A DNA stretch of 64,000 nt from a virus, in the IMG/VR virus record IMGVR_UViG_3300023440_000002, positions 1-64,000 of that record; one strand, given 5' to 3'. Under the pieces are notes generated by a model. That model did no database searches and had not been told where the DNA came from. It saw only the letters and a program-made list of their open reading frames with translations. A program made the position numbers and the translations under genes. Below, in pieces: positions 1,132-58,120 of the stretch (the first letter of the stretch is position 1; the number at the start of each line of letters is the position of its first letter).

Positions 1132-1529
1132 TGAAAGTTTCTGTTATTGCAATCCATCACCCAGAATTTGATAATTTAATCCTTCACGGCAAAAGAAGAG
1201 ATAATAAAAAATGGACTATCCCTGGCGGAGGGGCGGACGGTGGAGAATCTGCGATTAAGTGCGCCAACAGGGAATTAATGGAAGAAACCGGACTTAAGAT
1301 ACCTAAATTGAAGTATTGGGGTAAAAAGATAATCAAAGGTAAGGATGAAGATATTGAAGTATCTTTATTTGTAGGGAAATGCCCAAAGAGTCTTAATCTT
1401 AAAATAGGTGAAGATCCGGACGAAGAGATGGTTCATTTTAAGTTTTTAGACCCTCTAGTTCATGGAAATTTACACGTACCGATGAATCGAAACATCTTAA
1501 AGGAATATTTGAGTGAAAAAGTTAAATAA
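1125..1529 (+). CDS. Nudix hydrolase
   Basis: 134 residues with a complete Nudix box (G-x5-E-x7-R-E-U-x-E-E-x-G-U): GGADGGE, then seven residues, then RELMEETGL, at about residues 34-57. The box binds the divalent metal and hydrolyses nucleoside diphosphates linked to another moiety; the substrate cannot be read from sequence. The gene overlaps both neighbours (ATG inside the end of the 118 gene, GTG of the next gene inside its own end), so it is translationally coupled into this late cluster. Phage Nudix proteins act on ADP-ribose, capped RNA or damaged nucleotides in known cases. Confidence 0.88.
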   Translation: MLMKVSVIAIHHPEFDNLILHGKRRDNKKWTIPGGGADGGESAIKCANRELMEETGLKIPKLKYWGKKIIKGKDEDIEVSLFVGKCPKSLNLKIGEDPDEEMVHFKFLDPLVHGNLHVPMNRNILKEYLSEKVK

Positions 1530-43881: not shown

Positions 43882-43926
43882 ACTAACCAACGAAAAGAGC
43901 AATTAAGCTCAAAAGGAGAAATGTAT

Positions 43927-44307
43927 ATGCAGTACTACCAGCAAGGTGACGTTTTGCTAAAGAAGGTTTCAGTCCTTCCAAAGGAAGCAAAAAAGATTAA
44001 AGGGAAGGTTCTTCAAGAATCTGAGATTACAGGCCATCACCATCATTTTAAGGGTAACGCAGCGGTTGATCTATATCAAACCCTCGAAACTCCAACTAAT
44101 GATAAAACCATCACACCGAACTTTGGCAAATTCATCATTGTTAAAGAAATGTCAGATCTTTTCCACGGAAAAGGCTTTGACGCCACCCCTGCGGCACTAA
44201 ACCGAGGCGACCATGACGCAATCTCTATTCCACCTGGAATTTACGAGATCGATATCGTTAGAGAGTACGACTTTGACGCAAATGAGGTTTCTCGAGTGGT
44301 CGATTAA
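43927..44307 (+). CDS. GDVLL-type phage accessory protein
   Basis: 126 residues; start at 43927 chosen because AGGAG lies 8 bases upstream (the ATG at 43921 is too close). QGDVLLKKVSVLPKEAKKIK, TGHHHHFKG and HDAISIPPGIYEIDIVREYD form a conserved pattern of a widespread phage family of unknown function. The histidine cluster could bind metal. Confidence 0.6.
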   Translation: MQYYQQGDVLLKKVSVLPKEAKKIKGKVLQESEITGHHHHFKGNAAVDLYQTLETPTNDKTITPNFGKFIIVKEMSDLFHGKGFDATPAALNRGDHDAISIPPGIYEIDIVREYDFDANEVSRVVD

Positions 44308-45213: not shown

Positions 45214-45259
45214 GGTGTATGTAAATGGCAAGTAGCTAACCCAATAAGGGAAAACCTAG

Positions 45260-45421
45260 ATGGAAACTAAATCTATTGCAAGTAAGGTTCACAGGAAGGT
45301 TCACGAGCAGATTCGCTGGCAGGTTTTCGGGCAGATTAACTGGGAGATTAGCAACCAGGTTGCCGATCAAATAATCAATCCAATAATCAATCCAATAAGG
45401 GATGATCTAAATGGAAACTAA
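45260..45421 (+). CDS. QVxx unit A1
   Basis: 53 residues. Head METKSIASKV; short core; tail with duplicated INPI (DQIINPIINPIRDDLNGN). Ribosome site AAGGGA is in the leader's orphan tail. Overlaps A2 by 11 bases. Confidence 0.65.
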   Translation: METKSIASKVHRKVHEQIRWQVFGQINWEISNQVADQIINPIINPIRDDLNGN

Positions 45422-45602
45422 AGATATTACAAAAGATGTTCGCCAGCAGGTTTACGAGCAGGTTCGCCAGGAGGTTTACGAGCAGGTTAACCGGCAGGTT
45501 CGCTGGAAGGTTGACGAGCAGATTCACTGGCAAATTCGAGATCAGGTTTACCGGCAGGTTCGCTGGCAGATTAACTGGCAGATTAGCGATCAGGTTAACT
45601 GA
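45411..45602 (+). CDS. QVxx unit A2, tail lost by a nonsense codon
   Basis: 63 residues. About 12 tetrads such as QVYE, QVRQ, QVNR, QIHW. A TGA stands where a variable-slot TGG (Trp) is expected; in-frame tail codons continue to 45644. Confidence 0.6.
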   Translation: METKDITKDVRQQVYEQVRQEVYEQVNRQVRWKVDEQIHWQIRDQVYRQVRWQINWQISDQVN

Positions 45603-45633
45603 CAAATAACTGAACCAATAAAGGATAACCTAG

Positions 45634-45759
45634 ATGAAAGCTAAAGATATCACAAAAGAGGTTTACCGGCAGGTTCGCTGGCCGATTCTCGAGCAGGTTG
45701 CCGATCAAATAATCAATCCAATAATCAATCCAATAAGGGAAAACCTAAATGGAAGCTAA
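45634..45759 (+). CDS. QVxx unit A3, short
   Basis: 41 residues: head MKAKDITKEV, only three to four tetrads, tail DQIINPIINPIRENLNGS. Shows that tetrad number varies widely between units. Confidence 0.6.
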   Translation: MKAKDITKEVYRQVRWPILEQVADQIINPIINPIRENLNGS

Positions 45760-45919
45760 AGTTATTACAAATATAACCGATAAGATTTACAGTCAGGTTC
45801 TCAACCAGGTTAGCGACCGGATTCACGAGCAGCTTTACTGGGAGATTTACGGGCAGGTCCACGACCAGGTTCTCGGGCAAATATCTGACCCAATAGAGGA
45901 AAACCTAGATGGAAGCTAA
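45749..45919 (+). CDS. QVxx unit A4, head contains a sigma-28 box
   Basis: 56 residues starting MEAKVITNITDKIYSQVLNQ. Codons 3-11 spell TAAAGTTA-N11-ACCGATAA. Tail QISDPIEENLDGS. Confidence 0.65.
   Translation: MEAKVITNITDKIYSQVLNQVSDRIHEQLYWEIYGQVHDQVLGQISDPIEENLDGS
45757..45783 (+). promoter_or_regulatory. sigma-28 box inside unit A4
   Basis: TAAAGTTA-N11-ACCGATAA within the coding head; 14 of 16 consensus positions. Confidence 0.5.
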
Positions 45920-46094
45920 AGTTATTACTAATAATATTTACGACCAGGTTCGCCAGAAGATTAAACAGCAGATTTTCGAGCAAGTTTATTGGCAAGTTAG
46001 CTTGCAGGTTCGCTGGTATATTAGCGATCAGATTAACCAGCAGGTTCGCGAGCAAATAGCCACCCCAATAAGGGAAAATCTAAGTGGAAACTGA
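45909..46094 (+). CDS. QVxx unit A5
   Basis: 61 residues; head MEAKVITNNIY, tail QIATPIRENLSGN. The next unit uses GTG because the tail codon is AGT instead of AAT or GAT. Confidence 0.65.
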   Translation: MEAKVITNNIYDQVRQKIKQQIFEQVYWQVSLQVRWYISDQINQQVREQIATPIRENLSGN

Positions 46095-46197
46095 AGATAT
46101 TACAAAAGAGGTTCGCCGGCATATTGTCAAGCAGATTAACTTGCAGGTTCGCGATCAAGTAACTAATCCAATATGGACTGATCTAAATGGAAACTAA
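46084..46197 (+). CDS. QVxx unit A6, shortest, GTG start
   Basis: 37 residues: head (V)ETEDITKEV, about four tetrads, tail QVTNPIWTDLNGN. Confidence 0.55.
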   Translation: METEDITKEVRRHIVKQINLQVRDQVTNPIWTDLNGN

Positions 46198-46393
46198 AGA
46201 CGTTACAAATACAGCCGATCAGTCCCGCCGGCAGGTTCGCTGGAAGGTTGCCGATCAGGTTTTCGACCAGGTTAATGATCAGGTTAATGATCAGGTTTAC
46301 TGGCAGATTAACTGGGAGATTAGCAACCAGGTTGCCGATCAAATAATCAATCCAATAATCAATCCAATAAGGGATGATCTAAATGGAAACTAA
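46187..46393 (+). CDS. QVxx unit A7
   Basis: 68 residues; head METKDVTNTADQS, tail INPIINPIRDDLNGN. Nearly identical to A11. Confidence 0.65.
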   Translation: METKDVTNTADQSRRQVRWKVADQVFDQVNDQVNDQVYWQINWEISNQVADQIINPIINPIRDDLNGN

Positions 46394-46568
46394 AGATATT
46401 ACTAATGAGGTTCGCCAGCAGGTTTACTGGGAGATTCACAGTCAGGTTAACTGGCATGTTCGCAACCAGGTTCGCAACCAGGTTCGCCGGAAGGTTTTCT
46501 CGCAGATTTACGAGCAGGTTTTCGGGCAAATAACTAACCCAATAAAGGAAGATCTAGATGGAAACTGA
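46383..46568 (+). CDS. QVxx unit A8
   Basis: 61 residues; head METKDITNEV, eleven tetrads, tail QITNPIKEDLDGN. A typical full unit. Confidence 0.65.
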   Translation: METKDITNEVRQQVYWEIHSQVNWHVRNQVRNQVRRKVFSQIYEQVFGQITNPIKEDLDGN

Positions 46569-46728
46569 AGATGTTACAGATAAGATTTACTATCGAATTA
46601 CCGGACAGGTCCGCAATCAGGTTGAGTGGCAGGTTCGCAGGCAGGTTCGTGACCAGATTATTGACCAGATTTACGACCAGATTGACGAACAAATAGTTAT
46701 CCCAATAAAGGAAAATCTAAATGACTGA
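46558..46728 (+). CDS. QVxx unit A9
   Basis: 56 residues; head METEDVTDKIY. The tail QIVIPIKENLND lacks the last residue pair because the next head is ATGACTGAAG; overlap 8 bases. Confidence 0.65.
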   Translation: METEDVTDKIYYRITGQVRNQVEWQVRRQVRDQIIDQIYDQIDEQIVIPIKENLND

Positions 46729-46933
46729 AGCTAAAGTTATTAAAAATAAGATTTACCGGCAGATTCGCGGCCAGATTTGCCGGCAGATTAACCGGCAGAT
46801 TCGCTGGCAGACTCGCAGTCAGATTTGCCGGCAGATTAACTGGGATATTCGCGATCAGGTTCGCATTCAGATTTACGATCAGGCTAATGATCAAATATTT
46901 AATCCAATAAGGGATGATCTAAATGGAAACTAA
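46721..46933 (+). CDS. QVxx unit A10
   Basis: 70 residues; head MTEAKVIKNKIY, Ile- and Arg-rich tetrads (QICR, QINR, QIRW), tail QIFNPIRDDLNGN. Confidence 0.65.
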   Translation: MTEAKVIKNKIYRQIRGQICRQINRQIRWQTRSQICRQINWDIRDQVRIQIYDQANDQIFNPIRDDLNGN

Positions 46934-47129
46934 AGATATTACAAATACAGCCGATCAGTCCCGCCGGCAGGTTCGCTGGAAGGTTGCCGATCAGATTTTC
47001 GACCAGGTTAATGATCAGGTTTACTGGCAGGTTTTCGGGCAGATTAACTGGGAGATTAGCAACCAGGTTGCCGATCAAATAATCAATCCAATAATCAATC
47101 CAATAAGGGATGACCTAAATGGAAACTAA
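46923..47129 (+). CDS. QVxx unit A11
   Basis: 68 residues; near-duplicate of A7, with one tetrad exchanged (QVFG added, QVND lost). Confidence 0.65.
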   Translation: METKDITNTADQSRRQVRWKVADQIFDQVNDQVYWQVFGQINWEISNQVADQIINPIINPIRDDLNGN

Positions 47130-47292
47130 AGATATTGCAAAAGAGATTCACGAGCAGGTTTACGAGCAGGTTTGCGACCAGGTTAGCGAGCAGGTTCGCC
47201 GGCAGGTTCGCCGGCAGGTTTACTGTCAGATTGGCGACCAGACTTACTGGCAAGTAACTAACCCAATAAGGGATGACCTAAATGGAAACTGA
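47119..47292 (+). CDS. QVxx unit A12
   Basis: 57 residues; head METKDIAKEI, one off-pattern tetrad (QTYW), tail QVTNPIRDDLNGN. Confidence 0.65.
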   Translation: METKDIAKEIHEQVYEQVCDQVSEQVRRQVRRQVYCQIGDQTYWQVTNPIRDDLNGN

Positions 47293-47461
47293 AGATATTG
47301 CAAAAGAGATTCACGAGCAGGTTGGCGAGCAGATTCGCCGGCAACTTTACGAGCAGGTTAACCGGCAGGTTCGCTGGAAGGTTGACGAGCAGATTTACTG
47401 GAAGGTTCGCTGGCAGATTCTCAACCAGGTTTCCGAGCAAATTACCAATCAGATTATCTGA
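47282..47461 (+). CDS. QVxx unit A13, last of array A, tail lost
   Basis: 59 residues; head METEDIAKEI. It ends at TGA in a variable slot (QII then stop); the tail codons (NPIRDNP) remain in frame to 47494. The next gene begins 23 bases later. Confidence 0.6.
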   Translation: METEDIAKEIHEQVGEQIRRQLYEQVNRQVRWKVDEQIYWKVRWQILNQVSEQITNQII

Positions 47462-47516
47462 CAGATTCAAAACCCAATAAGGGATAACCCCTAAATAAAC
47501 TAAGAAAGGAACTATT

Positions 47517-47738
47517 ATGGCAAAGCAAGAATCAACACCGTGGGATGACCTAGAAGGAAGATTGGTCAACTACAAAAAACTACACCAGAAGAAAGCCACC
47601 GGACCACTCAAGGAAGAACTGGCTAAGGCAAAAACCCTAACTCAAGCTAGAAAGGTACTCTTCGGAGAAAAGAAGAAAAGAATCAATTGCTCTAATTGCT
47701 CACACAAAGTTTGTGTTTGCGGGAAAACTTCCCGTTGA
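47517..47738 (+). CDS. small protein with C-terminal Cys cluster
   Basis: 73 residues behind AAGGAAC. Helical middle (KEELAKAKTLTQARKVLFGE), then CSNCSHKVCVCG, a likely zinc site. First gene after array A, probably co-transcribed. Confidence 0.5.
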   Translation: MAKQESTPWDDLEGRLVNYKKLHQKKATGPLKEELAKAKTLTQARKVLFGEKKKRINCSNCSHKVCVCGKTSR

Positions 47739-47920
47739 TTTTCGCAGTGAAGGTCAAAATAGAATCATTTGACTCGAGGTTTACTGAAATAACCCAAGAC
47801 CTTTATTTCAGTAAACCTCCTAGTGAACAAGAAATAACCAAAGAGGCTTCTATTGACCCGCAAGTAAAGTGGTCATACATCGTAAAAAGAGTAATCATAA
47901 TCAACAATGAAGGTATTTAA
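47735..47920 (+). CDS. small hypothetical protein
   Basis: 61 residues if it starts at the TTG of a TTGA overlap (47735); GTG 47747 or TTG 47696 are alternatives. Contains KVKIESFDSRFTEITQDLYF. Unknown. Confidence 0.4.
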   Translation: MIFAVKVKIESFDSRFTEITQDLYFSKPPSEQEITKEASIDPQVKWSYIVKRVIIINNEGI

Positions 47921-48161
47921 CTTAATATTATGGCTTAAGGGATTGTTCTCTAAAAAGGGTATATCACACACTATTATGAAACCCCAAGGATTTAACGCCC
48001 TTAAGCCTAGCACCCCATCTAATTGCATTTATTGCGAAAACCAATGGGAAGAATTCGACCAGCATTCTTATGAAAGATGCAGTAAATGCTTCGATCTAAC
48101 CAACCTCCACCCAAGCAAAGTAACTTTAAAGAACAATAAAATCACCATTAACTTCGAGTAA
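47907..48161 (+). CDS. small zinc-ribbon protein
   Basis: 84 residues; ATG overlaps the previous gene by 14 bases. CIYC and CSKC knuckles 17 residues apart suggest a zinc ribbon; the C-terminus TLKNNKITINFE looks like strands. Confidence 0.5.
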   Translation: MKVFNLILWLKGLFSKKGISHTIMKPQGFNALKPSTPSNCIYCENQWEEFDQHSYERCSKCFDLTNLHPSKVTLKNNKITINFE

Positions 48162-48165
48162 ACCC

Positions 48166-50391
48166 ATGACTAAATACGAACAATTCAGACAATACATCGC
48201 CCAATTCCTCCAAGGCCCTAACGTAGAAGCGATACTTAATAGTTTAGCAGACGATTCAACTAAACTAGAAAACCTATCGAGATCCGTAACAGACCAGCTA
48301 ACCATATCGACAGCCTCAAGTGTTTACTTAGATAAAAGACTAGCTGACAAAGGAATAACTCGCCCACCAGAACTAGGCATGTCTGACATATCATTCCGTA
48401 AGATGGGAATACAAATAACTGCGGCTAAGCAACTAACTGGATTAATCCATACGATACTGGGCACTTTCTATGGTGAAGAAGCAGTAAGGGCTAACCTGAA
48501 GAATACTAAGACAGGACCTTACAACCTAGAAGAAGGAATGGAACTAGAGTTCGAACTAGAGGATGGTATTACTAGGGTGGTATCATTCAAAAACACAGAC
48601 TTCATAAACATCAACCAAGCTACGGCATCAGAGGTAGCATCAGTAATAACACGATTCATAAGAACACAGAACTTAGGAGCTTTTGCTAGTACAGTAAAGG
48701 ACTTAAACACAGGCTTAGAGTTCATAAAGTTGTTCGGTGGAGCTGCGGGGCCATACTCAACAGTGACAGTCACAGGAGGCGAAGCTAATACAATCCTGCA
48801 ATTTCCTAATATTAGAGGAACCGAGCTGTTAGTTAATGATACAGCATGGGAGATTACCCGTACCGTAGGCAGCACATTACGGTTCAGATGGGCAGGCAAT
48901 TCCAAACCGGCATTAGACTTGATATTTCCAACCGACCGCGTAATGATTTACGGGCAAAGTTTTGAGTCTATTGGACTGGCCGGAACTTTTATTGTCTCAA
49001 ACGTACGACCTCCACTGATCGGCCCAGACCTAGACGCAGGGTGGTTCGAGATAGAAGTCCCTGCTTTCAGTGGCTTACGTTCTACTCAGCCTGGCACAAC
49101 ACCCCCAACTAACGTACCACCCGACACTATCTATTCTTATACCATAGTTCAAGCCAACTGGGAAGAGCTAATGTTCATGAAGCCAGTCAAAGCTTTACCT
49201 AACCGCCAGGTGCGTTACGCCTTAGGTTGGGAGCCTAGAGGTGATTTGCTGCGAATTTATATGCCGGCAACAACTGGTATTGTCTCTAGGGGGATTGAAG
49301 GTGCAGCACACTTACATTCGCTTTACGAGGACGGTAATCTGGATGGGGCTTTCGGCTCTGTTACGGATCTTGACTCCGCAGTGGAAGTTATCTCAGATCG
49401 CATTATACGATACCGCCAACTAGGTTACGATAATCACGCTACGGGAGGAGTATTGTCTTGGGGTGGTAATGACTACGAAATCGATTATGTCCGGCGTGAG
49501 CAATTCACCTCTACCGTATTTTTGAATGAGCCCCACGGATTGCCGGTAGTGCAAGATTCTTTCGGGCGCGACGTTTCTTTGGAAGTGGTATCTGTTGTGG
49601 TGGATATTATGCAGACAGACGATTTAGAATTCAAATCCCCCTATATGGTTGACCTAGGTAAGAACTACACCGTCAGGTCTGAGTTTGTTACTTCTCGCGC
49701 TAAGGTGTTTGCGGGTTCCACCCTGTCCACTTTGGATGTGGATGGTATTTTACCTAATGAGCCAGGGGTATTATTGTTCGACTTAAACACCGACAAAGAA
49801 GAAGGCCCTATTCGTTATGTTGGGGTTCAGGCTCAAAACGCCCCTAACGTGGTGAATATAGTGACTATTTCCCAAAACGGGCTGAATGTTACCATTACCA
49901 CAGATGCTCCTCACGGCGCTACTAGTGGCAGCAACATAGTAATATCAGGTACAACTTTCTTTGATGGGGTGTATCCCGTAGTGGGCGTACCTAACCCGAC
50001 TACCATCCAAGCGATTTCCACTGTCGTCCAGGTGGAGAATGAGGTTGGGGTAGGTAGCTTGTCTGTTGTGGTGGATAATGTTCGGTCTACGTTGCTGCTC
50101 GACCCTAGCAATGAATTCAAGTTTGATCATGAAATAGGAGCTGACTTAACTTTGATGTCTTCTAGGAATGCCTACCAGCCTGCCTTAGATGGCTCAGATT
50201 ACCCGTTCTACGTTACTGGGGTAGCTGAGGGTAGAGTTTTCGCTGCGGACGTCATAGAGGCTATTACGGCGTTAGGGATTAATATCGAAATATTGATCGT
50301 CTACCCAAGCGATAAAGGCCTAGGCAACGAAGGAGGTTCAGATGGTAATGAAACCCCTGTGTCAGATAAAGTTACGGTTTGGGGTGTTTAA
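48166..50391 (+). CDS. baseplate/appendage-like structural protein between the two arrays
   Basis: 741 residues. N-terminal helices (IAQFLQGPNVEAILNSLADD), then beta-rich domains including an HGxxxGxxVxI module (APHGATSGSNIVISG), the type also seen in the 33596 baseplate protein. The C-terminus is acidic and Gly-rich. It is separated from the main tail cluster by 8 kb of accessory genes and is flanked by the inverted QVxx arrays. Its 3' end overlaps the last minus-strand unit by 20 bases. A host-range or adsorption function is possible. Confidence 0.55.
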   Translation: MTKYEQFRQYIAQFLQGPNVEAILNSLADDSTKLENLSRSVTDQLTISTASSVYLDKRLADKGITRPPELGMSDISFRKMGIQITAAKQLTGLIHTILGTFYGEEAVRANLKNTKTGPYNLEEGMELEFELEDGITRVVSFKNTDFININQATASEVASVITRFIRTQNLGAFASTVKDLNTGLEFIKLFGGAAGPYSTVTVTGGEANTILQFPNIRGTELLVNDTAWEITRTVGSTLRFRWAGNSKPALDLIFPTDRVMIYGQSFESIGLAGTFIVSNVRPPLIGPDLDAGWFEIEVPAFSGLRSTQPGTTPPTNVPPDTIYSYTIVQANWEELMFMKPVKALPNRQVRYALGWEPRGDLLRIYMPATTGIVSRGIEGAAHLHSLYEDGNLDGAFGSVTDLDSAVEVISDRIIRYRQLGYDNHATGGVLSWGGNDYEIDYVRREQFTSTVFLNEPHGLPVVQDSFGRDVSLEVVSVVVDIMQTDDLEFKSPYMVDLGKNYTVRSEFVTSRAKVFAGSTLSTLDVDGILPNEPGVLLFDLNTDKEEGPIRYVGVQAQNAPNVVNIVTISQNGLNVTITTDAPHGATSGSNIVISGTTFFDGVYPVVGVPNPTTIQAISTVVQVENEVGVGSLSVVVDNVRSTLLLDPSNEFKFDHEIGADLTLMSSRNAYQPALDGSDYPFYVTGVAEGRVFAADVIEAITALGINIEILIVYPSDKGLGNEGGSDGNETPVSDKVTVWGV

Positions 50392-50551
50392 GATCTCCCC
50401 TTATCAGGTTAGCTACTTGCCAGCTAACCTGCCAGTGAACCCGGTTGCTAGTCTGACGTTGAATATGCCAGTAAACCTGTCCGCTAACCTGCTCGTAAAC
50501 CTGCCGGTAAATCTGCTCGCGAATCTTATTAGCAATATCATTAGTTTTCAT
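50372..50551 (-). CDS. QVxx unit B1 (last of array B)
   Basis: 59 residues; head MKTNDIANKI. The tail is altered (QVANLIRGDLKHPKP) because it runs into the end of the opposing 48166 gene. Confidence 0.6.
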   Translation of the reverse strand: MKTNDIANKIREQIYRQVYEQVSGQVYWHIQRQTSNRVHWQVSWQVANLIRGDLKHPKP

Positions 50552-50738
50552 CGATATCATCCTTTATTTGGTTAGCTACTTGCCAGCTAATCTGCTCGAG
50601 AATCGGCCAGCGAACCTGCCTTCTAATCTTATTGCTAACCTGCCAGCGGACCTGCCAGTGAACCTGCCAGATAACCTGCCAGTAAATCTGCTCGCGAACC
50701 TGCTGGCGAATCTCTTTTGCAATATCATTAGTTTCCAC
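50541..50738 (-). CDS. QVxx unit B2
   Basis: 65 residues, GTG start; head METNDIAKEI, tail QVANQIKDDIDEN. Confidence 0.6.
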   Translation of the reverse strand: METNDIAKEIRQQVREQIYWQVIWQVHWQVRWQVSNKIRRQVRWPILEQISWQVANQIKDDIDEN

Positions 50739-50901
50739 TTAGGTCGCTCCATATTGGATCAGTTATTTGCAGGCGAACCTGCTCGCAAGCCTGCCGGTGA
50801 ACCTGCCATCCAACCTGCCAGCTAACCTGCTCGATAACCTGCTCGAGAATCTGCTCGTAAATCTGCTCGCGAATCTTACTTGTAATATCATTAGTTTCCA
50901 T
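50728..50901 (-). CDS. QVxx unit B3
   Basis: 57 residues; head METNDITSKI, tail QITDPIWSDLSGN. Confidence 0.65.
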   Translation of the reverse strand: METNDITSKIREQIYEQILEQVIEQVSWQVGWQVHRQACEQVRLQITDPIWSDLSGN

Positions 50902-51088
50902 TCAGATTATCCCTTATTGGGTTGGCTATTTGCTGGCCAACTTGGTCGATAATCCGGTCGCTAACCTGCCGGTAAACCTGCTCGATAACCTTCCAGTAAA
51001 CCTGGTCGTCAATCTGCTCGAGAATATGCCAGCAAACCTGATCGTAAACCTCCTGGCGAATCTCTTTTGCAATATCATTAGTTTCCAC
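50891..51088 (-). CDS. QVxx unit B4
   Basis: 65 residues, GTG start; Asp-rich tetrads (QIDD, RIID), tail QIANPIRDNLNGN. Confidence 0.65.
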   Translation of the reverse strand: METNDIAKEIRQEVYDQVCWHILEQIDDQVYWKVIEQVYRQVSDRIIDQVGQQIANPIRDNLNGN

Positions 51089-51272
51089 TTAGGTCGCTCC
51101 ATATTGGGTTGGCTATTTGCTCTTGAACCTGCCAGTAAACCTGGTCGTTAACCTTCCAGTAAACCTGTCCGCTAACCTGCTCGTAAACCTGTCGGTAAAT
51201 CTGCTCGCGAACCTGATCGATAACCTGCCCTCGAACCTGCTGGCGAATCTCTTTTGCAATATCTTCAGTCAT
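51078..51272 (-). CDS. QVxx unit B5
   Basis: 64 residues; start at 51272 (MTEDIAKEI) 8 bases after AAGGA; tail QIANPIWSDLSGN. Confidence 0.65.
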   Translation of the reverse strand: MTEDIAKEIRQQVRGQVIDQVREQIYRQVYEQVSGQVYWKVNDQVYWQVQEQIANPIWSDLSGN

Positions 51273-51399
51273 ATAGATCATCCTTGATTGGATTAGCTAC
51301 TTGCAGGCGAACCTGCTCGTAAACCCGCCAGTTAATCTGGTCGTCAATATGGCCGTAAATCTTCCAGCGAATTTCTTTTGTAATACCTTTAGCTTTCAT
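51265..51399 (-). CDS. QVxx unit B6, short
   Basis: 44 residues; head MKAKGITKEI, tail QVANPIKDDLYD. Confidence 0.6.
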   Translation of the reverse strand: MKAKGITKEIRWKIYGHIDDQINWRVYEQVRLQVANPIKDDLYD

Positions 51400-51574
51400 T
51401 AAGGTTATCCTTTATTGGGTTAGCTATTTGATCGAAAACCTGGTCGATAACCTGCCCGCTAACCTGGTCGTCAATCTGCTCGAGAATATGCCAATAAGCC
51501 TGGTCGTTAACCTGCCCCAGAACCTGCTGGCGAACCTGCCAACGAACCTCATTAGTAATAACTTTAGCTTTCAT
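51389..51574 (-). CDS. QVxx unit B7
   Basis: 61 residues; head MKAKVITNEV, tail QIANPIKDNLNES. Confidence 0.65.
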   Translation of the reverse strand: MKAKVITNEVRWQVRQQVLGQVNDQAYWHILEQIDDQVSGQVIDQVFDQIANPIKDNLNES

Positions 51575-51722
51575 CTAGGTCGCTCCATATTGGATCAGTT
51601 ATTTGCAGGCGAACCTGGTCTCGAATCTCCCAGTGAACCTGCTCGATAACCTGCAAGTTAATTTGCTTGACAATATGCAGGTAAGCCTTCCAGCTAATCT
51701 CTTTTGCAATATCTTCAGTCAT
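51564..51722 (-). CDS. QVxx unit B8
   Basis: 52 residues; head MTEDIAKEI, includes AYLHIVKQINLQV, a block shared with A6, B15 and B26; tail QITDPIWSDLDES. Confidence 0.65.
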   Translation of the reverse strand: MTEDIAKEISWKAYLHIVKQINLQVIEQVHWEIRDQVRLQITDPIWSDLDES

Positions 51723-51906
51723 TTAGGTTTTCCTTTATTGGGTTAGTTATTTGCCAGCTAACCTGCTCGAGAATCTGCCAATTAACCTGCTCGATAACCT
51801 GCCAGTAAACCTGTTCGATAACCTGCCGGCGGATCTGGTTGCGAACCTGCCCGCTAACCTGGTCGTCAATCTGACAGTAAACTTGCCAGCTAATATCTTC
51901 AGTCAT
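51715..51906 (-). CDS. QVxx unit B9
   Basis: 63 residues; shortened head MTEDI, tail QITNPIKENLND. Confidence 0.65.
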   Translation of the reverse strand: MTEDISWQVYCQIDDQVSGQVRNQIRRQVIEQVYWQVIEQVNWQILEQVSWQITNPIKENLND

Positions 51907-52081
51907 TTAGGTTATCCTTTATTGGGTCAGATATTTGATCATGAACCTGCCATCCAATCTGCCATCCAATCTGCCGGAAAACCTGCCAGTAAACCTGTCG
52001 GCGAACCTTCCAGAGAGCTTGGTCGTTAACCTGATCATTAACCTGCCGGTGAACATCTTTTGCAATATCTTCAGTTTCCAT
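51899..52081 (-). CDS. QVxx unit B10
   Basis: 60 residues; head METEDIAKDV, tail QISDPIKDNLND. Confidence 0.65.
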   Translation of the reverse strand: METEDIAKDVHRQVNDQVNDQALWKVRRQVYWQVFRQIGWQIGWQVHDQISDPIKDNLND

Positions 52082-52232
52082 TTAGGTTATCCTTTATTGG
52101 GTCAGATATTTGATCATGAACCTGCCATCCAATCTGCCATCCAATCTGCCGGAGAGCCTGGTCGTTAATCTGCCAGTAAATCTGTTGGTGAATCTGCTGG
52201 TGAATCTCATTAGTAATATCTTTAGCTTTCAT
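52071..52232 (-). CDS. QVxx unit B11
   Basis: 53 residues; head MKAKDITNEI, mostly Ile tetrads, tail QISDPIKDNLNGN. Confidence 0.65.
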   Translation of the reverse strand: MKAKDITNEIHQQIHQQIYWQINDQALRQIGWQIGWQVHDQISDPIKDNLNGN

Positions 52233-52383
52233 CTAGGTCTTCCCATATTGGATTAGCTATTTGCTCGAAAACCTGCTCGTAAACCTGCCGGCGAACCTGG
52301 TCGTAAACCTGCCCGCGAATCTGCCAGTAAATCTCCCAGTAAACCTGCCAGTTAACCTCTTTTGTGATATCTTCAGATTCCAT
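52222..52383 (-). CDS. QVxx unit B12
   Basis: 53 residues; head MESEDITKEV, tail QIANPIWEDLDES. Its core is largely repeated in B13. Confidence 0.65.
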   Translation of the reverse strand: MESEDITKEVNWQVYWEIYWQIRGQVYDQVRRQVYEQVFEQIANPIWEDLDES

Positions 52384-52594
52384 TTAGATCTACCTTTATT
52401 GGGGTGGCTATTTGATTGCGAACCTGCTCGTAAACCTGCCGGCGAACCTGGTCGCAAACCTGCCCGCGAATCTGCCAGTAAATCTCCCAGTAAACCTGAT
52501 CATTAATCTGCCAGTGAAGCTTCCAGTGAACCTGGCCGTTAATCTGCTCTCGAACCTGCTGGCGAATCTCATTAGTAATATCTTCAGCTTTCAT
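52373..52594 (-). CDS. QVxx unit B13
   Basis: 73 residues; head MKAEDITNEI, tail QIATPIKVDLNGI. The second half of the core is nearly identical to B12. Confidence 0.65.
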   Translation of the reverse strand: MKAEDITNEIRQQVREQINGQVHWKLHWQINDQVYWEIYWQIRGQVCDQVRRQVYEQVRNQIATPIKVDLNGI

Positions 52595-52706
52595 CTAGGT
52601 CATCCATTATTGGGGTGGCTATTTGATTGCGAACCTGGTCGCTAACCTGCCGACCTTACTTTACATAAACCTTATCGGTTATGTCTGTAATAACTTTAGC
52701 TTTCAC
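52584..52706 (-). pseudogene. degenerate unit B14 with sigma-28 box
   Basis: GTG start, MKAKVITDITDKVYVK then an in-frame TAA; the remaining codons still spell RQVSDQVRNQIATPIMDDL. The head is a sigma-28 box, so the unit may now serve as a promoter. Confidence 0.7.
52672..52698 (-). promoter_or_regulatory. sigma-28 box in degenerate unit B14
   Basis: TAAAGTTA-N11-ACCGATAA on the minus strand, followed by GGTTTATGTAAAG as in unit B16. Confidence 0.55.
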
Positions 52707-52881
52707 TTAGGTCTCCACCTATTAGGTTACGAACCTGCCGGCGAACCTGCCAGTGAACCGGCAGGTTAATTTGCTCGACAATATGCAAGTAAGTCTTCCA
52801 GCTAGTCTGCTGGTTAACCTGCTGATGGATCTTCCAGTGAATCTGCCGGCGAATCTCTTTTGTAGTATCTTTAGTTTCCAT
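52696..52881 (-). CDS. QVxx unit B15
   Basis: 61 residues; head METKDTTKEI, tail QVRNLIGGDLSES. Confidence 0.6.
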   Translation of the reverse strand: METKDTTKEIRRQIHWKIHQQVNQQTSWKTYLHIVEQINLPVHWQVRRQVRNLIGGDLSES

Positions 52882-52993
52882 TGAGATTTTCCTTTATTGG
52901 GTCAGTTATTTGATTGCGAGCTTGATCGTCAATTTGCCGACCTTACTTTACATAAACCTTATCGGCTATATCTGTAATAACTTTAGTTTCCAT
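52871..52993 (-). pseudogene. degenerate unit B16 with sigma-28 box
   Basis: METKVITDIADKVYVK then in-frame TAA, with tail codons RQIDDQARNQITDPIKENL still in frame. Same structure as B14, implying duplication after decay or a conserved promoter form. Confidence 0.7.
52959..52985 (-). promoter_or_regulatory. sigma-28 box in degenerate unit B16
   Basis: TAAAGTTA-N11-GCCGATAA, 15 of 16 consensus positions. Confidence 0.6.
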
Positions 52994-53168
52994 GCAGATC
53001 TTCCCTTATTGGTTCAGTTATTTGCCCATGAACCTGGTCGTGAACTTGCCAGTTAATTTGATCGAGAATCTGGCCGTGAACCTGGTCGCCAATCTGCTGA
53101 TAAACACCCCGGCTAATCTGATCATTAATCTGCTGGTGAATCTTACCTATAATATCTTCAGTTTTCAT
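52983..53168 (-). CDS. QVxx unit B17
   Basis: 61 residues; head MKTEDIIGKI, tail QITEPIREDLHGN. Confidence 0.65.
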   Translation of the reverse strand: MKTEDIIGKIHQQINDQISRGVYQQIGDQVHGQILDQINWQVHDQVHGQITEPIREDLHGN

Positions 53169-53343
53169 TAAGATCTTCCCATATTGGGTCAGTTATTTGC
53201 AGGCGAACCTCCCAGTAAGTCTGGTCGCCAATCTGCCAGTAAACCTGCCGGCGAACCTGCTCGAGAACATGGCCGCGAATCTGATGGTAAATCTCCCAAT
53301 CAACCTGCCAGTGAATCTTACTTGTAATATCTTTAGTTTTCAT
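53158..53343 (-). CDS. QVxx unit B18
   Basis: 61 residues; head MKTKDITSKI, tail QITDPIWEDLNEN. Confidence 0.65.
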   Translation of the reverse strand: MKTKDITSKIHWQVDWEIYHQIRGHVLEQVRRQVYWQIGDQTYWEVRLQITDPIWEDLNEN

Positions 53344-53506
53344 TTAGGTCTACCTTTATTGGAGAGGTTGTTTGCCAGCGAACCTGCATATCAACCTGAT
53401 CTAGAATCTGCCGCTGAATCTGCCAGCGAACCTGATAGTGAACCTGATCTCGAATTTGCCAGTAAATCTGCCAGTTAACCTCTTTTGTAATATCTTTAGT
53501 TTTCAT
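53333..53506 (-). CDS. QVxx unit B19
   Basis: 57 residues; start at 53506 (MKTKDITKEV) 8 bases after AAAGGA; tail QTTSPIKVDLNEN. Confidence 0.65.
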   Translation of the reverse strand: MKTKDITKEVNWQIYWQIRDQVHYQVRWQIQRQILDQVDMQVRWQTTSPIKVDLNEN

Positions 53507-53789
53507 CGAGGTCATCCTTTATTGGGTCGGATATTTGATTGTAAACCTGATTGTGAACCTGATCTAGAATCTGCCAGTAAGCCTGCCAGTAAGTCTGCCC
53601 GCTAGCCTGGCCTTTAATACGCTCGAGAATCTGGCCGTGAACCTCCCAGTGAACCTGATCGTAAATATGCCCGCTAGCCTGCTGGCCAACCTGATTGGTA
53701 ATTTGATCGTCAACCTGCTCGTCAACCTGCCAGTAAATCTGTTGACTAATCTGATTATGTACCTTGTCGGCTATATCTTTAGTTTTCAT
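53496..53789 (-). CDS. QVxx unit B20, longest
   Basis: 97 residues with about 20 tetrads; head MKTKDIADKV, tail QISDPIKDDLDEN. Probably two cores fused. Confidence 0.65.
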   Translation of the reverse strand: MKTKDIADKVHNQISQQIYWQVDEQVDDQITNQVGQQASGHIYDQVHWEVHGQILERIKGQASGQTYWQAYWQILDQVHNQVYNQISDPIKDDLDEN

Positions 53790-53988
53790 TTAGGTCATCC
53801 TTTATTGGGTTAGCTACTTGCTGGTGAACCTGCTCGTGAACCCGCCAGTAAACCTCCTCGTAAGTCTCCTCGTAAACCTCCCAATAAACACAATCGTAAA
53901 GATGCTTGCTAACCTTATCGAGAATCTGATTGCGAACCTGCCAGTGAATCTCATCGTGAATCTTACCTGTAATACCATCAGCTTCCAT
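53779..53988 (-). CDS. QVxx unit B21
   Basis: 69 residues; Glu-rich core (EVYEETYEEVYWRV), tail QVANPIKDDLNEN. Confidence 0.65.
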   Translation of the reverse strand: MEADGITGKIHDEIHWQVRNQILDKVSKHLYDCVYWEVYEETYEEVYWRVHEQVHQQVANPIKDDLNEN

Positions 53989-54151
53989 CTAAGTCTTCCT
54001 TTATTGGGATGGTTATTTGCCAGCGAATCTGATCGCGAACATGCCAGTTAACCTTCCAGCGAACCTGCTCGAGAATCTCCCAGTCAACCTGCTCGCTAAC
54101 CTTCCAGCGAATCTGACTGTAAATCTTACTTGCTATATCTTCAATTTTCAT
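53978..54151 (-). CDS. QVxx unit B22
   Basis: 57 residues; head MKIEDIASKI, tail QITIPIKEDLDGS. Confidence 0.65.
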   Translation of the reverse strand: MKIEDIASKIYSQIRWKVSEQVDWEILEQVRWKVNWHVRDQIRWQITIPIKEDLDGS

Positions 54152-54362
54152 TTAGGTCATCCTTTATTGGGTCGGATATTTGATTGTAAGCCTGCTCGTG
54201 AACATGCTGGCGAACCTGCCGGTTAACCTGCTCGTAAACCTCCCAGCTAACCTGGTCGCAAATCTGCTCGAAAACCTGGTCGCGAATCTCCCAGTGAATA
54301 CCCCAATGAACCTGGTCGTAAACCTGCGAGCGAACATCTTTTGTAATATCTTTAGTTTTCAT
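54141..54362 (-). CDS. QVxx unit B23
   Basis: 73 residues; start at 54362 (MKTKDITKDV) after AAAGGA; tail QISDPIKDDLNEN. Confidence 0.65.
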   Translation of the reverse strand: MKTKDITKDVRSQVYDQVHWGIHWEIRDQVFEQICDQVSWEVYEQVNRQVRQHVHEQAYNQISDPIKDDLNEN

Positions 54363-54537
54363 CGAGGTCATCCTTTATTGGAGAGGTTGTTTGCCGGCGA
54401 ACCTTACCGTGAATCAGCCAATTAACCTGTTCGCGAATCTGACTGTAAACCTGCCAGTGAACCTGCTCGTAAATCTGCCAGTGAGCGTGACTGACAATTC
54501 GATTGTGAATTTTGTCGGCTATATCTTTAGTTTTCAT
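54352..54537 (-). CDS. QVxx unit B24
   Basis: 61 residues; head MKTKDIADKI, tail QTTSPIKDDLDEN. Confidence 0.65.
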   Translation of the reverse strand: MKTKDIADKIHNRIVSHAHWQIYEQVHWQVYSQIREQVNWLIHGKVRRQTTSPIKDDLDEN

Positions 54538-54712
54538 CGAGGTCATCCTTTATTGGGTTAGCTACTTGCTCGTGAACCTGATTGTGAACCTGATCTAGAA
54601 TCTGCTCGCTAATCTGCTTGCGAACCTCCCAGTAAGCCTCCCAGCGAATACCCCAATGAACCTGGTCGTAAACCTGCTTATAAACCTTATTTGCGGCAAT
54701 TTTAGCTTCCAT
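54527..54712 (-). CDS. QVxx unit B25
   Basis: 61 residues; head MEAKIAANKVY shared with B29; tail QVANPIKDDLDEN. Confidence 0.65.
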   Translation of the reverse strand: MEAKIAANKVYKQVYDQVHWGIRWEAYWEVRKQISEQILDQVHNQVHEQVANPIKDDLDEN

Positions 54713-54875
54713 TTAGTTCATCCCTTATTGGGTTGGCTATTTGATTTCGAATTTGCCTATGAATCTGCTTGCGAACCTCCCAGTAAACCTCCCAGCGAAC
54801 CTGCAAGTTAATCTGCTTGACAATATGCAGGTAAACCTCCCAGCTAATCTCTTTTGTAATATCATTAGTTTCCAT
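54702..54875 (-). CDS. QVxx unit B26
   Basis: 57 residues; head METNDITKEI, HIVKQINLQV block, tail QIANPIRDELNGS. Confidence 0.65.
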   Translation of the reverse strand: METNDITKEISWEVYLHIVKQINLQVRWEVYWEVRKQIHRQIRNQIANPIRDELNGS

Positions 54876-55038
54876 CTAGATCTTCCTTTATTGGGTTAAG
54901 TATTTGATCACGAATCTGCCAGTTAACCCTCGAGTAAGCCCTCCAATAAACCAAATAATCAACCTGCTCGCGAACTTGCCAGTAAATCTTCCGGTAAACC
55001 TGCTGGCGAATCTCATTAGTAATATCTTCAATTTCCAT
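54865..55038 (-). CDS. QVxx unit B27
   Basis: 57 residues; less regular core (DYLVYWRAYSRV), tail QILNPIKEDLDGN. Confidence 0.65.
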   Translation of the reverse strand: MEIEDITNEIRQQVYRKIYWQVREQVDYLVYWRAYSRVNWQIRDQILNPIKEDLDGN

Positions 55039-55213
55039 TTAGGTCTTCCCATATTGGATCAACTCCTTGCTCACGAACTTGAGCGTAAATCTGCCAGTAA
55101 ATCTGCCAGCGAACCTTCCGGTTAACTTTCTCGTGAATATGATTGATAGTCTGCCGGCGAATCTGCTGGCGAACCTGGTCGTGAATCTCTTTTGTAATAT
55201 CTTCAGTTTCCAT
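55028..55213 (-). CDS. QVxx unit B28
   Basis: 61 residues; head METEDITKEI, tail QGVDPIWEDLNGN. Confidence 0.65.
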   Translation of the reverse strand: METEDITKEIHDQVRQQIRRQTINHIHEKVNRKVRWQIYWQIYAQVREQGVDPIWEDLNGN

Positions 55214-55388
55214 TTAGGTCATTCCTTATTGGGTCGATTATCTGTACGTGAACCTGCCAGCGAACATGCAAGCGAACATGCTCGAGAATCTTCCAGTAGG
55301 GGTTCCGGCCAACCTGATCAACGACCTGCTCTCGAACCTGGTCGTAAACCTGCTTATAAACCTTATTTGCGGCAACTTTAGCTTTCAT
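55203..55388 (-). CDS. QVxx unit B29
   Basis: 61 residues; head MKAKVAANKVY, tail QIIDPIRNDLNGN. Confidence 0.65.
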   Translation of the reverse strand: MKAKVAANKVYKQVYDQVREQVVDQVGRNPYWKILEHVRLHVRWQVHVQIIDPIRNDLNGN

Positions 55389-55560
55389 TTAGATCTTCCT
55401 TTATTGGGATAACTATTTGCCCGCGAATTTGATCGTTAATCTGCTCGTTAATCTGTTCGCGAACCTGCCCTCGAACCTGCCAATAAGTCTGCCAGTCAAC
55501 CTTCCAACTAATCTCGCTACACACCTTATCGGTTATACCTGTAATAACTTTAGCTTTCAT
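55378..55560 (-). CDS. QVxx unit B30, first unit after the ClpP-like gene
   Basis: 60 residues; head MKAKVITGITDKV contains an intact sigma-28 box; tail QIVIPIKEDLNES. Its ribosome site lies at the end of the protease gene (AATAAAGGAAGATC). Confidence 0.65.
   Translation of the reverse strand: MKAKVITGITDKVCSEISWKVDWQTYWQVRGQVREQINEQINDQIRGQIVIPIKEDLNES
55526..55552 (-). promoter_or_regulatory. sigma-28 box inside unit B30
   Basis: TAAAGTTA-N11-ACCGATAA on the minus strand in an open unit. Confidence 0.5.
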
Positions 55561-55572
55561 TTAGATCTTCCT

Positions 55573-56115
55573 TTATTCGCTCAAATACACAGCACCATCA
55601 ACAAAACCCGGAGCTATCTTGTCCAGGTACTCTCTATTCATATAGGTTTGGTTCTTGATTAGTTCTTTATAATTCGGAGGGTTAAATATCTTATTGATCT
55701 CTTTATGAATAAAAACATTATCTTTAATTGTCTTTTTAGAATCTTCCATTGTTACAATACATCGAGACGGACAATAATAATACAAGTTATGCATCATCAT
55801 TGTTGCTTTTGGCGTTAAGTGCCTGGTATCACACAAGGTTGAAATATAAAAGGCCATACTTAGGGCTTTCTTAATCAGGCAATGAACTTTAAACCCTCTC
55901 TTTTTAATGTCCTGAATTGAAGCCCCTAGCTGAAAAAAAGGCGTAACCGGCCCTCCAGGACTGTCAATTGTTAAATAAACATCCCGATGGGTCAACCTAA
56001 TATAAACTGCCAACGCAGATGCCGACATAGAATCGGTAAGCTTTAGTTTAGATACTTCACTAGCTGAAACCTGACTAGGCAACAGGATCATTAAAATTAA
56101 AAGTAAGTATTTCAT
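55573..56115 (-). CDS. secreted ClpP-like serine protease embedded in array B
   Basis: 180 residues. Sec signal peptide (KYLLLILMILLPSQVSASE, cleavage likely after ASA). ClpP/crotonase-type fold signals: YLTIDSPGGPV (SPGG 52-55, oxyanion loop), KKALSMAFYIS with nucleophile S86, and TPKATMMMHN with H109, in the same order as ClpP. An exported monomeric ClpP-like protein is unusual; SppA-like peptidases are the nearest exported relatives. It lies between a unit head (56130-56192) and a unit-tail ribosome site, so it looks like cargo inserted in a QVxx unit. Confidence 0.75.
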   Translation of the reverse strand: MKYLLLILMILLPSQVSASEVSKLKLTDSMSASALAVYIRLTHRDVYLTIDSPGGPVTPFFQLGASIQDIKKRGFKVHCLIKKALSMAFYISTLCDTRHLTPKATMMMHNLYYYCPSRCIVTMEDSKKTIKDNVFIHKEINKIFNPPNYKELIKNQTYMNREYLDKIAPGFVDGAVYLSE

Positions 56116-56129
56116 ATTGTTCCTTTCTG

Positions 56130-56192
56130 TTAGGGTTTAATCTCTATTCCATTAACCTTATCGGCTATATCTGCAATATCTTTAGTTTCCAT
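56130..56192 (-). pseudogene. orphan unit head upstream of the protease
   Basis: METKDIADIADKVNGIEIKP then stop, followed by AAAGGA and the protease ATG. Core and tail are missing. Confidence 0.65.
56158..56184 (-). promoter_or_regulatory. sigma-28 box driving the ClpP-like gene
   Basis: TAAAGATA-N11-GCCGATAA on the minus strand, about 43 bases before the protease start. Confidence 0.55.
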
Positions 56193-56355
56193 TTAGATCT
56201 ACCTTTATTGGTTCAGTTATTTGCTGGTCAACCTGGTCGCAAACCTGCCAGTGAATATGCCAGTCAACCTGCCAGCGAATCTCCCAGTGAGCCTGGTCAT
56301 TAATCTGACGGTCAACCTCCTGACGAATCTTTTTTGTAATATCTTTAGTTTCCAT
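56182..56355 (-). CDS. QVxx unit B31
   Basis: 57 residues; head METKDITKKI, tail QITEPIKVDLNGN. Confidence 0.65.
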   Translation of the reverse strand: METKDITKKIRQEVDRQINDQAHWEIRWQVDWHIHWQVCDQVDQQITEPIKVDLNGN

Positions 56356-56542
56356 TTAGGTCTTCCTTTATTGGGAGGGTTATTCGGTCGTCAATCTTTA
56401 AGTGGATCTCCCAGAGAACCTCCCGGCGAATCTTCCGACTAATCTGCTCATCAACCTGCTCATCAACCTGCTTATAAGTTTGGTTGTCAATCTGCAAGCG
56501 AACCTGCTCGATAACCTCATTAGTGATATCTTTAGTTTTCAT
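56345..56542 (-). CDS. QVxx unit B32
   Basis: 65 residues; head MKTKDITNEV, tail RITLPIKEDLNGN. Most of the core is shared with B35. Confidence 0.65.
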   Translation of the reverse strand: MKTKDITNEVIEQVRLQIDNQTYKQVDEQVDEQISRKIRREVLWEIHLKIDDRITLPIKEDLNGN

Positions 56543-56705
56543 CTAGGTTTTCCTTTATTGGGTTAGCTACTTGCTCGTGAACCTGCTCGTCAACATTCCA
56601 GTAAATCTCCCGGCTCACCCCCCTGTCAACCTGCCGGTTAATCTGCCAATAAACCTGATCGCTAATCTCCCGACGAATTTTATTACCAGTATCTTCAGCT
56701 TTCAT
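56532..56705 (-). CDS. QVxx unit B33
   Basis: 57 residues; head MKAEDTGNKI, tail QVANPIKENLDEN. Confidence 0.65.
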   Translation of the reverse strand: MKAEDTGNKIRREISDQVYWQINRQVDRGVSREIYWNVDEQVHEQVANPIKENLDEN

Positions 56706-56868
56706 CTAGATCATCCTTTATTGGGTTAGCTACTTGCTCGTGAACCCGCCAGTAAACCTGCCTGTGAACCTTCCAGCGAACCTGCCCTCTAGCCTGCCAA
56801 TTAATCTGTTTGTGAACCTTCCAGCGAACCTGCTCGTCAAACTCTTTTGTAATATCTTTAGCTTCCAT
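56695..56868 (-). CDS. QVxx unit B34
   Basis: 57 residues; head MEAKDITKEF, tail QVANPIKDDLDES. Confidence 0.65.
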   Translation of the reverse strand: MEAKDITKEFDEQVRWKVHKQINWQARGQVRWKVHRQVYWRVHEQVANPIKDDLDES

Positions 56869-57043
56869 CTAGGTCTTCCTTTATTGGGAGGGTTATTTGC
56901 TCGTCAATCTTTAAGTGGATCTCCCAGAGAACCTCCCGGCGAATCTTCCGACTAACCTGCCAACAAACCTGCTCATCAACCTGCTTATAAGTTTGGTTGT
57001 CAATCTGCAAGCGAACTTTATTACCAATATCTTTAGCTTCCAT
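56858..57043 (-). CDS. QVxx unit B35
   Basis: 61 residues; head MEAKDIGNKV, tail QITLPIKEDLDGS; near-duplicate of B32. Confidence 0.65.
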   Translation of the reverse strand: MEAKDIGNKVRLQIDNQTYKQVDEQVCWQVSRKIRREVLWEIHLKIDEQITLPIKEDLDGS

Positions 57044-57218
57044 CTAGGTCTTCCTTTATTGGGTCGAATACTTGATTGTAAACCTGGTCGTGAACCTGTC
57101 GGCGAACCTGTCGGTGAACCTGCCATCCAACCTGCCGGAGAACCTGACAGTTAGCCTGCCAGCTAACCTGCCAGCTAACCTGCCAGCTAACCTTTTTTAT
57201 AATACCTTTAGTTTCCAT
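57033..57218 (-). CDS. QVxx unit B36
   Basis: 61 residues; head METKGIIKKV; contains ANCQVLRQVGWQV shared with B39. Confidence 0.65.
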   Translation of the reverse strand: METKGIIKKVSWQVSWQVSWQANCQVLRQVGWQVHRQVRRQVHDQVYNQVFDPIKEDLDGS

Positions 57219-57405
57219 CTAGGTCTTCCTTTATTGGATTAGTTATTTGCTCGAAAACCTGGTCGCAAACCTGCCCGCGAATCTGCCAGTAAATCTCCCA
57301 GTAAAACTGATCATCAATCTGCCAGTGAACCTGGCCGCGAATCTGCCAGTAAACCTGGTCGTCAACCTCCCGACGAATCTTTTTTATAATACCTTTAGTT
57401 TCCAT
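57208..57405 (-). CDS. QVxx unit B37
   Basis: 65 residues; head METKGIIKKI, tail QITNPIKEDLDGN. Confidence 0.65.
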   Translation of the reverse strand: METKGIIKKIRREVDDQVYWQIRGQVHWQIDDQFYWEIYWQIRGQVCDQVFEQITNPIKEDLDGN

Positions 57406-57568
57406 CTAGGTCTTCCCTTATTGGATTGGTTATTTGACCGAAAACCTGCAAGAGAGCATGCAAGCGAACATGCAAGCGAACCTTCCAATAAATCTGCCAG
57501 TCATCCTGCCAGTTAACCTGCTCGAGAATCTGGTCGCGAATCTCTTTTATAGTATCACTAGCTTCCAT
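57395..57568 (-). CDS. QVxx unit B38
   Basis: 57 residues; head MEASDTIKEI, irregular core (RLHVRLHALLQV), tail QITNPIREDLDGN. Confidence 0.65.
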   Translation of the reverse strand: MEASDTIKEIRDQILEQVNWQDDWQIYWKVRLHVRLHALLQVFGQITNPIREDLDGN

Positions 57569-57767
57569 CTAGGTTTTCCTTTATTGGGTCGGTTATTTGC
57601 TCGAAAACCTGGTCGTAAACCTGTCGGCGAATATGCCGGCGAACCTGCCATTCAATCTGCCCTCGAACCTGCCATCCAACCTGCCGGAGAACCTGACAGT
57701 TAGCCTGCCAGCTAACCTGCCCGCGAACCTGTTCGATAACCTCTTTTGCAATATCTTTAGCTTCCAT
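57558..57767 (-). CDS. QVxx unit B39
   Basis: 69 residues; head MEAKDIAKEV, tail QITDPIKENLDGS. Confidence 0.65.
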   Translation of the reverse strand: MEAKDIAKEVIEQVRGQVSWQANCQVLRQVGWQVRGQIEWQVRRHIRRQVYDQVFEQITDPIKENLDGS

Positions 57768-57945
57768 TTAGGTCTACCATTATTGGGTTAGTTATTTGTG
57801 TGCGGATTTTACTGTAAGTACTCCAGCTGACCTGCATGTTAACTTCTTTTCGAGCGTTCCAATCAAAAACACTGCAAGCGGGTAGATTAGACAGATTAGC
57901 AATCTCATCAGTAATACCCAACCGTAAATCAATTATGTCTGTCAT
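57757..57945 (-). CDS. divergent family member B40
   Basis: 62 residues: MTDIIDLRLGITDEIANLSN, a non-repetitive middle with SVFDWNARKEVNMQVSW, and a family tail QITNPIMVDLNGS. The tetrad core is nearly absent. It looks like the non-repetitive ancestor or a hybrid. Confidence 0.65.
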   Translation of the reverse strand: MTDIIDLRLGITDEIANLSNLPACSVFDWNARKEVNMQVSWSTYSKIRTQITNPIMVDLNGS

Positions 57946-58120
57946 CGAGATCTCCCTTTATTGAAGCCATCACCTGCAAGCGGACCTCCAAGTGAATTGC
58001 AAAAGTGGTTTGTTGGTAAATGTAACTCCGAACATTAAACCTAAAGAGATCTGGGGAGTTACGTGTGCATTGACTTAGAAGGTCGATGGCTATCTTATGT
58101 TGAATATCAAGGACTTTCAT
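57929..58120 (-). CDS. divergent family member B41
   Basis: 63 residues: MKVLDIQHKIAIDLLSQCTR, then FNVRSYIYQQTTFAIHLEVR and tail QVMASIKGDLDDRHN. Conserved head/tail spacing but no QVxx core; most upstream member of the array. Confidence 0.6.
   Translation of the reverse strand: MKVLDIQHKIAIDLLSQCTRNSPDLFRFNVRSYIYQQTTFAIHLEVRLQVMASIKGDLDDRHN

Follow-up and report, generated by a model that had tools for sequence, protein, structure and literature searches.

The DNA analysed here (the window) comprises 64,000 bases from a virus record with a length of 108,381 bases and carries genes of a contractile-tail phage. Its relevant features are listed in Table 1. Two arrays of mini-genes, both located in the tail region, cover approximately 9.2 kb, that is about 14% of the window and not a fifth of it, as had been estimated in the preliminary description. 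They are split by a 741-aa gene of the baseplate region and by a ClpP-like gene. The arrays are oppositely oriented and flank the 741-aa gene (window 45260–57945), which could be inverted by recombination from one array to the other. Upstream of array 1, at a distance of 1–2 kb and on the same strand, lie a DUF6745 gene (PF20530, 44.4 bits against a curated cut-off of 27) and a gene whose product belongs to phrog_27831, both by its match in PHROGs and by its conserved G, H, H and G columns. Outside this region, a 1128-aa protein encoded near the head genes (1513–4899, +) contains a minimal CRISPR polymerase domain (mCpol, PF18182, E 1.4e-13), and a 486-aa protein (58886–60346, +) made of two similar halves (GSLQRRNPFNP...FLLHRG...SSWTP) has no match in NCBIfam or Pfam.

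Table 1. Features of the mini-gene locus, in window coordinates.
Feature	Position	Strand	Evidence
DUF6745 protein, 297 aa, lacking a tetrad insert	42904..43797	+	Pfam PF20530 E 1.5e-11, iterated HMM
phrog_27831-type protein, 128 aa, conserved DUF6745 partner	43921..44307	+	PHROGs E 4e-10; profile A5 E 1.1e-31 (the window protein is itself a row of A5)
Array 1, 13 overlapping Q-[VI]-x-x mini-genes	45260..47461	+	Exact unit calls
741-aa gene between the arrays; a relative adjoins a baseplate J-like gene in phage Mx1	48166..50391	+	
Array 2, 38 mini-genes, broken up by remnants and the ClpP-like gene	50372..57945	-	Exact unit calls
Remnant unit, in-frame TAA	52584..52706	-	Sequence
Remnant unit, in-frame TAA	52871..52993	-	Sequence; 73-aa query match contains one TAA
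ClpP-like protease gene within array 2; its end is the Shine-Dalgarno of the next unit	55573..56115	-	Pfam PF00574 E 1.1e-5, sequence
Head-only remnant, immediately before the ClpP-like gene	56130..56192	-	Sequence
Diverged first unit, head MKVLDIQHKI, tail ASIKGDLDDRHN	57929..58120	-	ORF list, sequence

The arrays of overlapping Q-[VI]-x-x mini-genes proposed in the preliminary description were confirmed as 51 intact, gene-like units with exact ends, 13 of them on the + strand and 38 on the - strand. Together with one diverged unit and three remnants, all on the - strand, this number agrees with the earlier count of about 54. Most units consist of a METKDIT-like head, whole tetrads and a PIKEDLDGN-like tail. 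As the length of 33 of the 45 units with a canonical tail is 1 mod 4, length appears to change mostly by whole tetrads. In two units of the + strand (45411–45602 and 47282–47461) a TGA directly precedes the tail. A single 73-aa unit used as query matched 52 places at E≤1e-3 across the 108,381-base record, and 515 tetrads were counted. Gln and Val/Ile, previously described as fixed, do form the prevailing pattern, but K, E, H or R also occur at position 1 of the tetrad, and A or T sometimes at position 2.

At nearly all junctions the ATG of a unit overlaps the stop of the preceding one by exactly 11 nt (8 or 5 nt at a few). For 45 of the 51 units, a Shine-Dalgarno-like AAGG, AGGA or AGGG is located within the tail DNA of the preceding unit, the codons of that tail (e.g., AAAGGAAGA) thus doubling as Shine-Dalgarno for the unit that follows. 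Overlap and in-tail Shine-Dalgarno together are the layout of a putative translationally coupled polycistron, and with such coupled starts and stops one transcript could yield the whole set of units. An Rfam scan of the array region gave no match, and promoter and terminator scans found no more sites in it than in shuffled sequences.

Inside any one array, the codons used for Q and V are nearly uniform, which is the pattern expected from recent amplification. Between arrays the codons change (CAG GTT in the window; CAA GTC, CAG GTC or CAG GTA elsewhere) and the residues are kept; hence it is the protein that is under selection in the long term. At the variable positions of the tetrad (x1 and x2) the situation is different. 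The three codon bases of x1 have entropies of 1.91, 1.75 and 0.96 bits, the mostly silent base being the least variable. The diversified repertoire that had been suggested is supported. Among the two-fold NNY codons, 85% of those at x1 end in C, compared with 44% in other window genes (p 2e-41). CAG accounts for 306 of 370 Q codons within the array units and for 128 of 445 in the other genes. Different units, mostly non-adjacent ones, have exact segments of 36–64 nt in common, some of which are displaced against each other by multiples of 12 nt. The simplest history would be that recombination amplifies and shuffles the units, and that variants differing at x1 and x2 are retained.

Two other origins of the repeats were considered. 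A neutral or selfish expansion, in which slippage multiplies 12-bp repeats within open frames and their products do little, would be in line with the near-perfect 12-mers within arrays, with a codon use unlike that of other genes and with the presence of remnants and premature stops. We consider it improbable: start, Shine-Dalgarno and stop are preserved across about 50 units, Q and V are maintained by different codons in different lineages, and the arrays are strongly associated with one gene pair (see below). The second origin is a DGR, in which a retroelement would rewrite the adenines of the x codons. DGRs and the window arrays have in common a fixed frame with highly variable codons, and most window codons at x1 are NNC, the form that a change of AAC to NNC would produce. 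Unlike in DGRs, no reverse transcriptase (PF00078) was found in 10 array-bearing records, in a search that detected the control; the Q codon hardly ever loses its adenine (base-2 entropy 0.16), and x1 is NNG or NNT in other lineages. No reverse transcriptase gene was detected in the window phage. With neither the enzyme nor the adenine-specific substitution pattern being present, a DGR was disfavoured as extremely unlikely, and the variation fits recombination among repeats.

Viral contigs were then scanned for runs of five tetrads. Similar mini-gene arrays are present in at least about a dozen other records, the array-bearing relatives recovered in this way being a lower bound. Heads and tails vary among phages (MKSVHKQ..., MNSVKDQ..., MIAMNGKRIENVW...), but starts that overlap the preceding stop are seen repeatedly. 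A clear in-tail Shine-Dalgarno is present in the window and in part of the other arrays, but not in every one. In one record (L264), two near-identical copies of a gene (7049–7246 and 7698–7892, +) show a unit-like head (MKSVHKQIWDQ) fused to a non-repeat domain. Searches with other approaches were negative: tblastn of a window unit against INPHARED gave no match, Pfam and PHROGs searches with the units gave weak matches only, and searches for related loci with the unit alignment, the 741-aa gene and the phrog_27831 protein of the window gave no confirmed relatives. A pattern scan of genome contigs returned mostly simple repeats and no recognisable mini-gene array. With PADLOC defence models, neither of the two window partners was matched, and the matches of inserts or units were low-complexity stretches. 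These HMM- and BLAST-type searches, which the preliminary description had proposed, thus matched no characterised family (Pfam, PHROGs, INPHARED, PADLOC), and to that extent its statement that the pattern belongs to no known phage family holds; it had not foreseen that mini-genes occur in many other viral contigs, that tetrads also form an insert of DUF6745 proteins, or that the window has a DUF6745 gene and its partner directly upstream of the arrays. Judged from the sequences, the window arrays are a case of a shared module and not a one-off.

The five-tetrad scan also revealed long tetrad runs inside the DUF6745 proteins of other phages. In several of these fused inserts, 1–3 of each 12 bases vary, and x1 is mostly W, R, G or E. 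The mini-gene units themselves do not match PF20530; what they have in common with DUF6745 is only the repeat of the insert. Around DUF6745 genes, the sole broadly recurrent neighbour is a phrog_27831-type protein of approximately 117 aa, the other large neighbour clusters consisting of shadow frames that belong to the repeats or to DUF6745. In a sample of 37 contigs picked by homology to one phrog_27831 protein, regardless of tetrads, DUF6745 was found nearby in 35, mini-genes in 27 and a tetrad insert in two. Mini-genes and a DUF6745 tetrad insert did not occur together in any of the 37, nor in any of all the records examined, and in insert-bearing records the tetrad DNA is in one place, the DUF6745 gene, among the matches listed. 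This exclusivity of tetrads in cis (insert) or in trans (mini-genes) has a p of 0.08 in the 37-contig sample alone and of 3e-10 when pooled with tetrad-selected records, counts of the latter test having been entered by hand from differently selected sets; both values are optimistic because several contigs are near-identical. In three array-bearing records (G003, G010 and G013), perhaps incomplete, no DUF6745 was seen. Taken together, the mini-genes look like a detached and multiplied DUF6745 insert.

Several variants of the DUF6745 protein were recorded. The Mycobacterium prophage prophiGD102-1 (gene 38, Q-L-x-x) has the same tetrad pattern and x1/x2 letters as the window units and, as in the window, a phrog_27831-type neighbour, but its repeats lie inside one protein, whereas the window has about 50 separate genes and an insert-free DUF6745. 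Inserts with Q-L-x-x tetrads (L299, 3182–4627, Mycobacterium prophage) and S-L-x-S tetrads (L298, 4359–5636, Manatee Spring phage) were observed, as well as a tetrad-containing protein with a TIGR02996 domain at its N-terminus (L081, 1754–3241, +) and a protein with a long non-tetrad insert (L337, 4813–6804, +).

The locus was also compared between sister phages, as had been proposed. The dN/dS values of DUF6745 and phrog_27831 are 0.05–0.11, and those of syntenic units 0.41–1.35. Within units, Q/V codons have a pN/pS of 0.42 and x codons one of 1.44, which does not exceed 1 significantly (p 0.27). In one sister pair, the stretch containing both partner genes can be aligned gap-free (88% identity), while colinearity is lost in the adjacent array. 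Both the rates and the lost colinearity lead to the conclusion that arrays turn over much faster than the partner genes.

Structure prediction of a single unit, likewise proposed earlier, was performed with AlphaFold2. One window unit was predicted as a single continuous helix (pLDDT 89.9, pTM 0.49), helix predictions on low-complexity sequence being weak evidence. A DUF6745 protein was predicted with a confident core and an insert that is helical at low confidence; this model had no match in the PDB with Foldseek at E≤0.001, and sequence-profile searches of the PDB with DUF6745 or the units gave nothing significant. As the repeat has a period of four residues and a helix turn takes 3.6, V would spiral around such a helix. 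A helical unit would also suit a structural role, in which rods, fibres or condensates are built from tetrad proteins by polymerisation or co-condensation, DUF6745 being a possible centre. What counts would then be how many units there are and how long they are, and x1/x2 diversity would be tolerated without selection. The repeats are indeed very regular, numerous and of variable length, and long tetrad runs exist inside DUF6745. Uniform fibres, however, have no need of such x1/x2 diversity, and the x bases are more variable than the silent ones; we regard assembly as rather unlikely.

DUF6745 and its partner occur in phages, actinobacteria and Deinococcus, DUF6745 being present in cyanobacteria as well. 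The N-terminal part of the DUF6745 protein from Deinococcus is LRR-like. On plasmids of Deinococcus and Streptomyces (L295 and L296), DUF6745 and a phrog_27831 relative lie beside genes of the STM4011–4015 families. This vicinity would fit units that serve as precursor-like or decoy substrates, either resembling multi-copy precursor peptides or mimicking substrates of host STM4011–4015 enzymes. Families of precursor peptides such as the prochlorosins comprise numerous small paralogues whose ends are constant and whose cores vary, as is the case with the window units. Unlike the generally known precursor peptides, the units have a strict four-residue core; no modifying enzyme was seen in the window phage, where the radical SAM class was searched for, and the bacterial link comprises two loci only. 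A phage-encoded radical SAM pathway was rejected for the window phage, in which no such gene was detected, and substrates of this kind are on the whole quite unlikely. Two radical SAM genes (3032–3559 and 98473–98979) were observed in the array-bearing record G003.

The closest cultured relative of the phage backbone is Myxococcus phage Mx1 (OR576727), which supplies the sole match of the window tail sheath in the phage collection (38% identity). Unlike the window phage, Mx1, with a complete genome, has no DUF6745, phrog_27831 or tetrads; the tetrad pattern is likewise absent from the records of tail-sheath relatives, most of which are fragments. The absence of the module from Mx1 fits an accessory cassette.

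The data establish the gene-like architecture of the units, protein-level constraint on Q and V, diversification of x1 and x2, fast array turnover and the association with DUF6745 and phrog_27831. The explanation that we favour, still tentatively, is that the arrays constitute multigene families encoding short Q-[VI]-x-x repeat proteins within an accessory module that also contains DUF6745 and the phrog_27831-type protein, with tetrads supplied in cis or in trans, and that they form a recombination-shuffled repertoire acting with DUF6745. The units would be translated into proteins that take the shape of extended rods, for the most part helical. As tetrads are fused to DUF6745 in some phages and encoded by separate genes beside it in others, a joint function is suggested, and by this gene-fusion argument the units would act in trans with DUF6745. 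The x1 and x2 residues would provide the contact surface for a variable partner, most likely a factor of the host or of a rival phage. New variants could be generated by unequal recombination, both among the 12-bp repeats and at the near-identical junctions of units. It is possible, but somewhat doubtful, that DUF6745, phrog_27831 and the tetrads make up a novel type of system in phages (and bacteria), in which short repeat proteins carry recombination-written variable residues used by DUF6745 and the arrays are a trans-acting repertoire against changing host or rival factors.

The open literature on DUF6745, phage tetrapeptide repeats, STM4011–4013 and TIGR02996 held nothing relevant, and in the libraries and open papers searched (subscription literature being outside the scope) there was no description of mini-gene arrays or of DUF6745 function. 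The DUF6745 insert is already contained in deposited records, hence the repeat as such is not new; tetrads as a multi-gene repertoire appear to be new. The results point to an undescribed, fast-diversifying phage module. A repertoire this large, its cis and trans forms and its protein-level conservation across diverse phages have no counterpart in the sources searched. The arrays provide a first handle on DUF6745 and its phrog_27831-type partner. If the variable positions are contact residues, the arrays would enable phages to maintain small binders as a large and shuffled set without the need for a reverse transcriptase.
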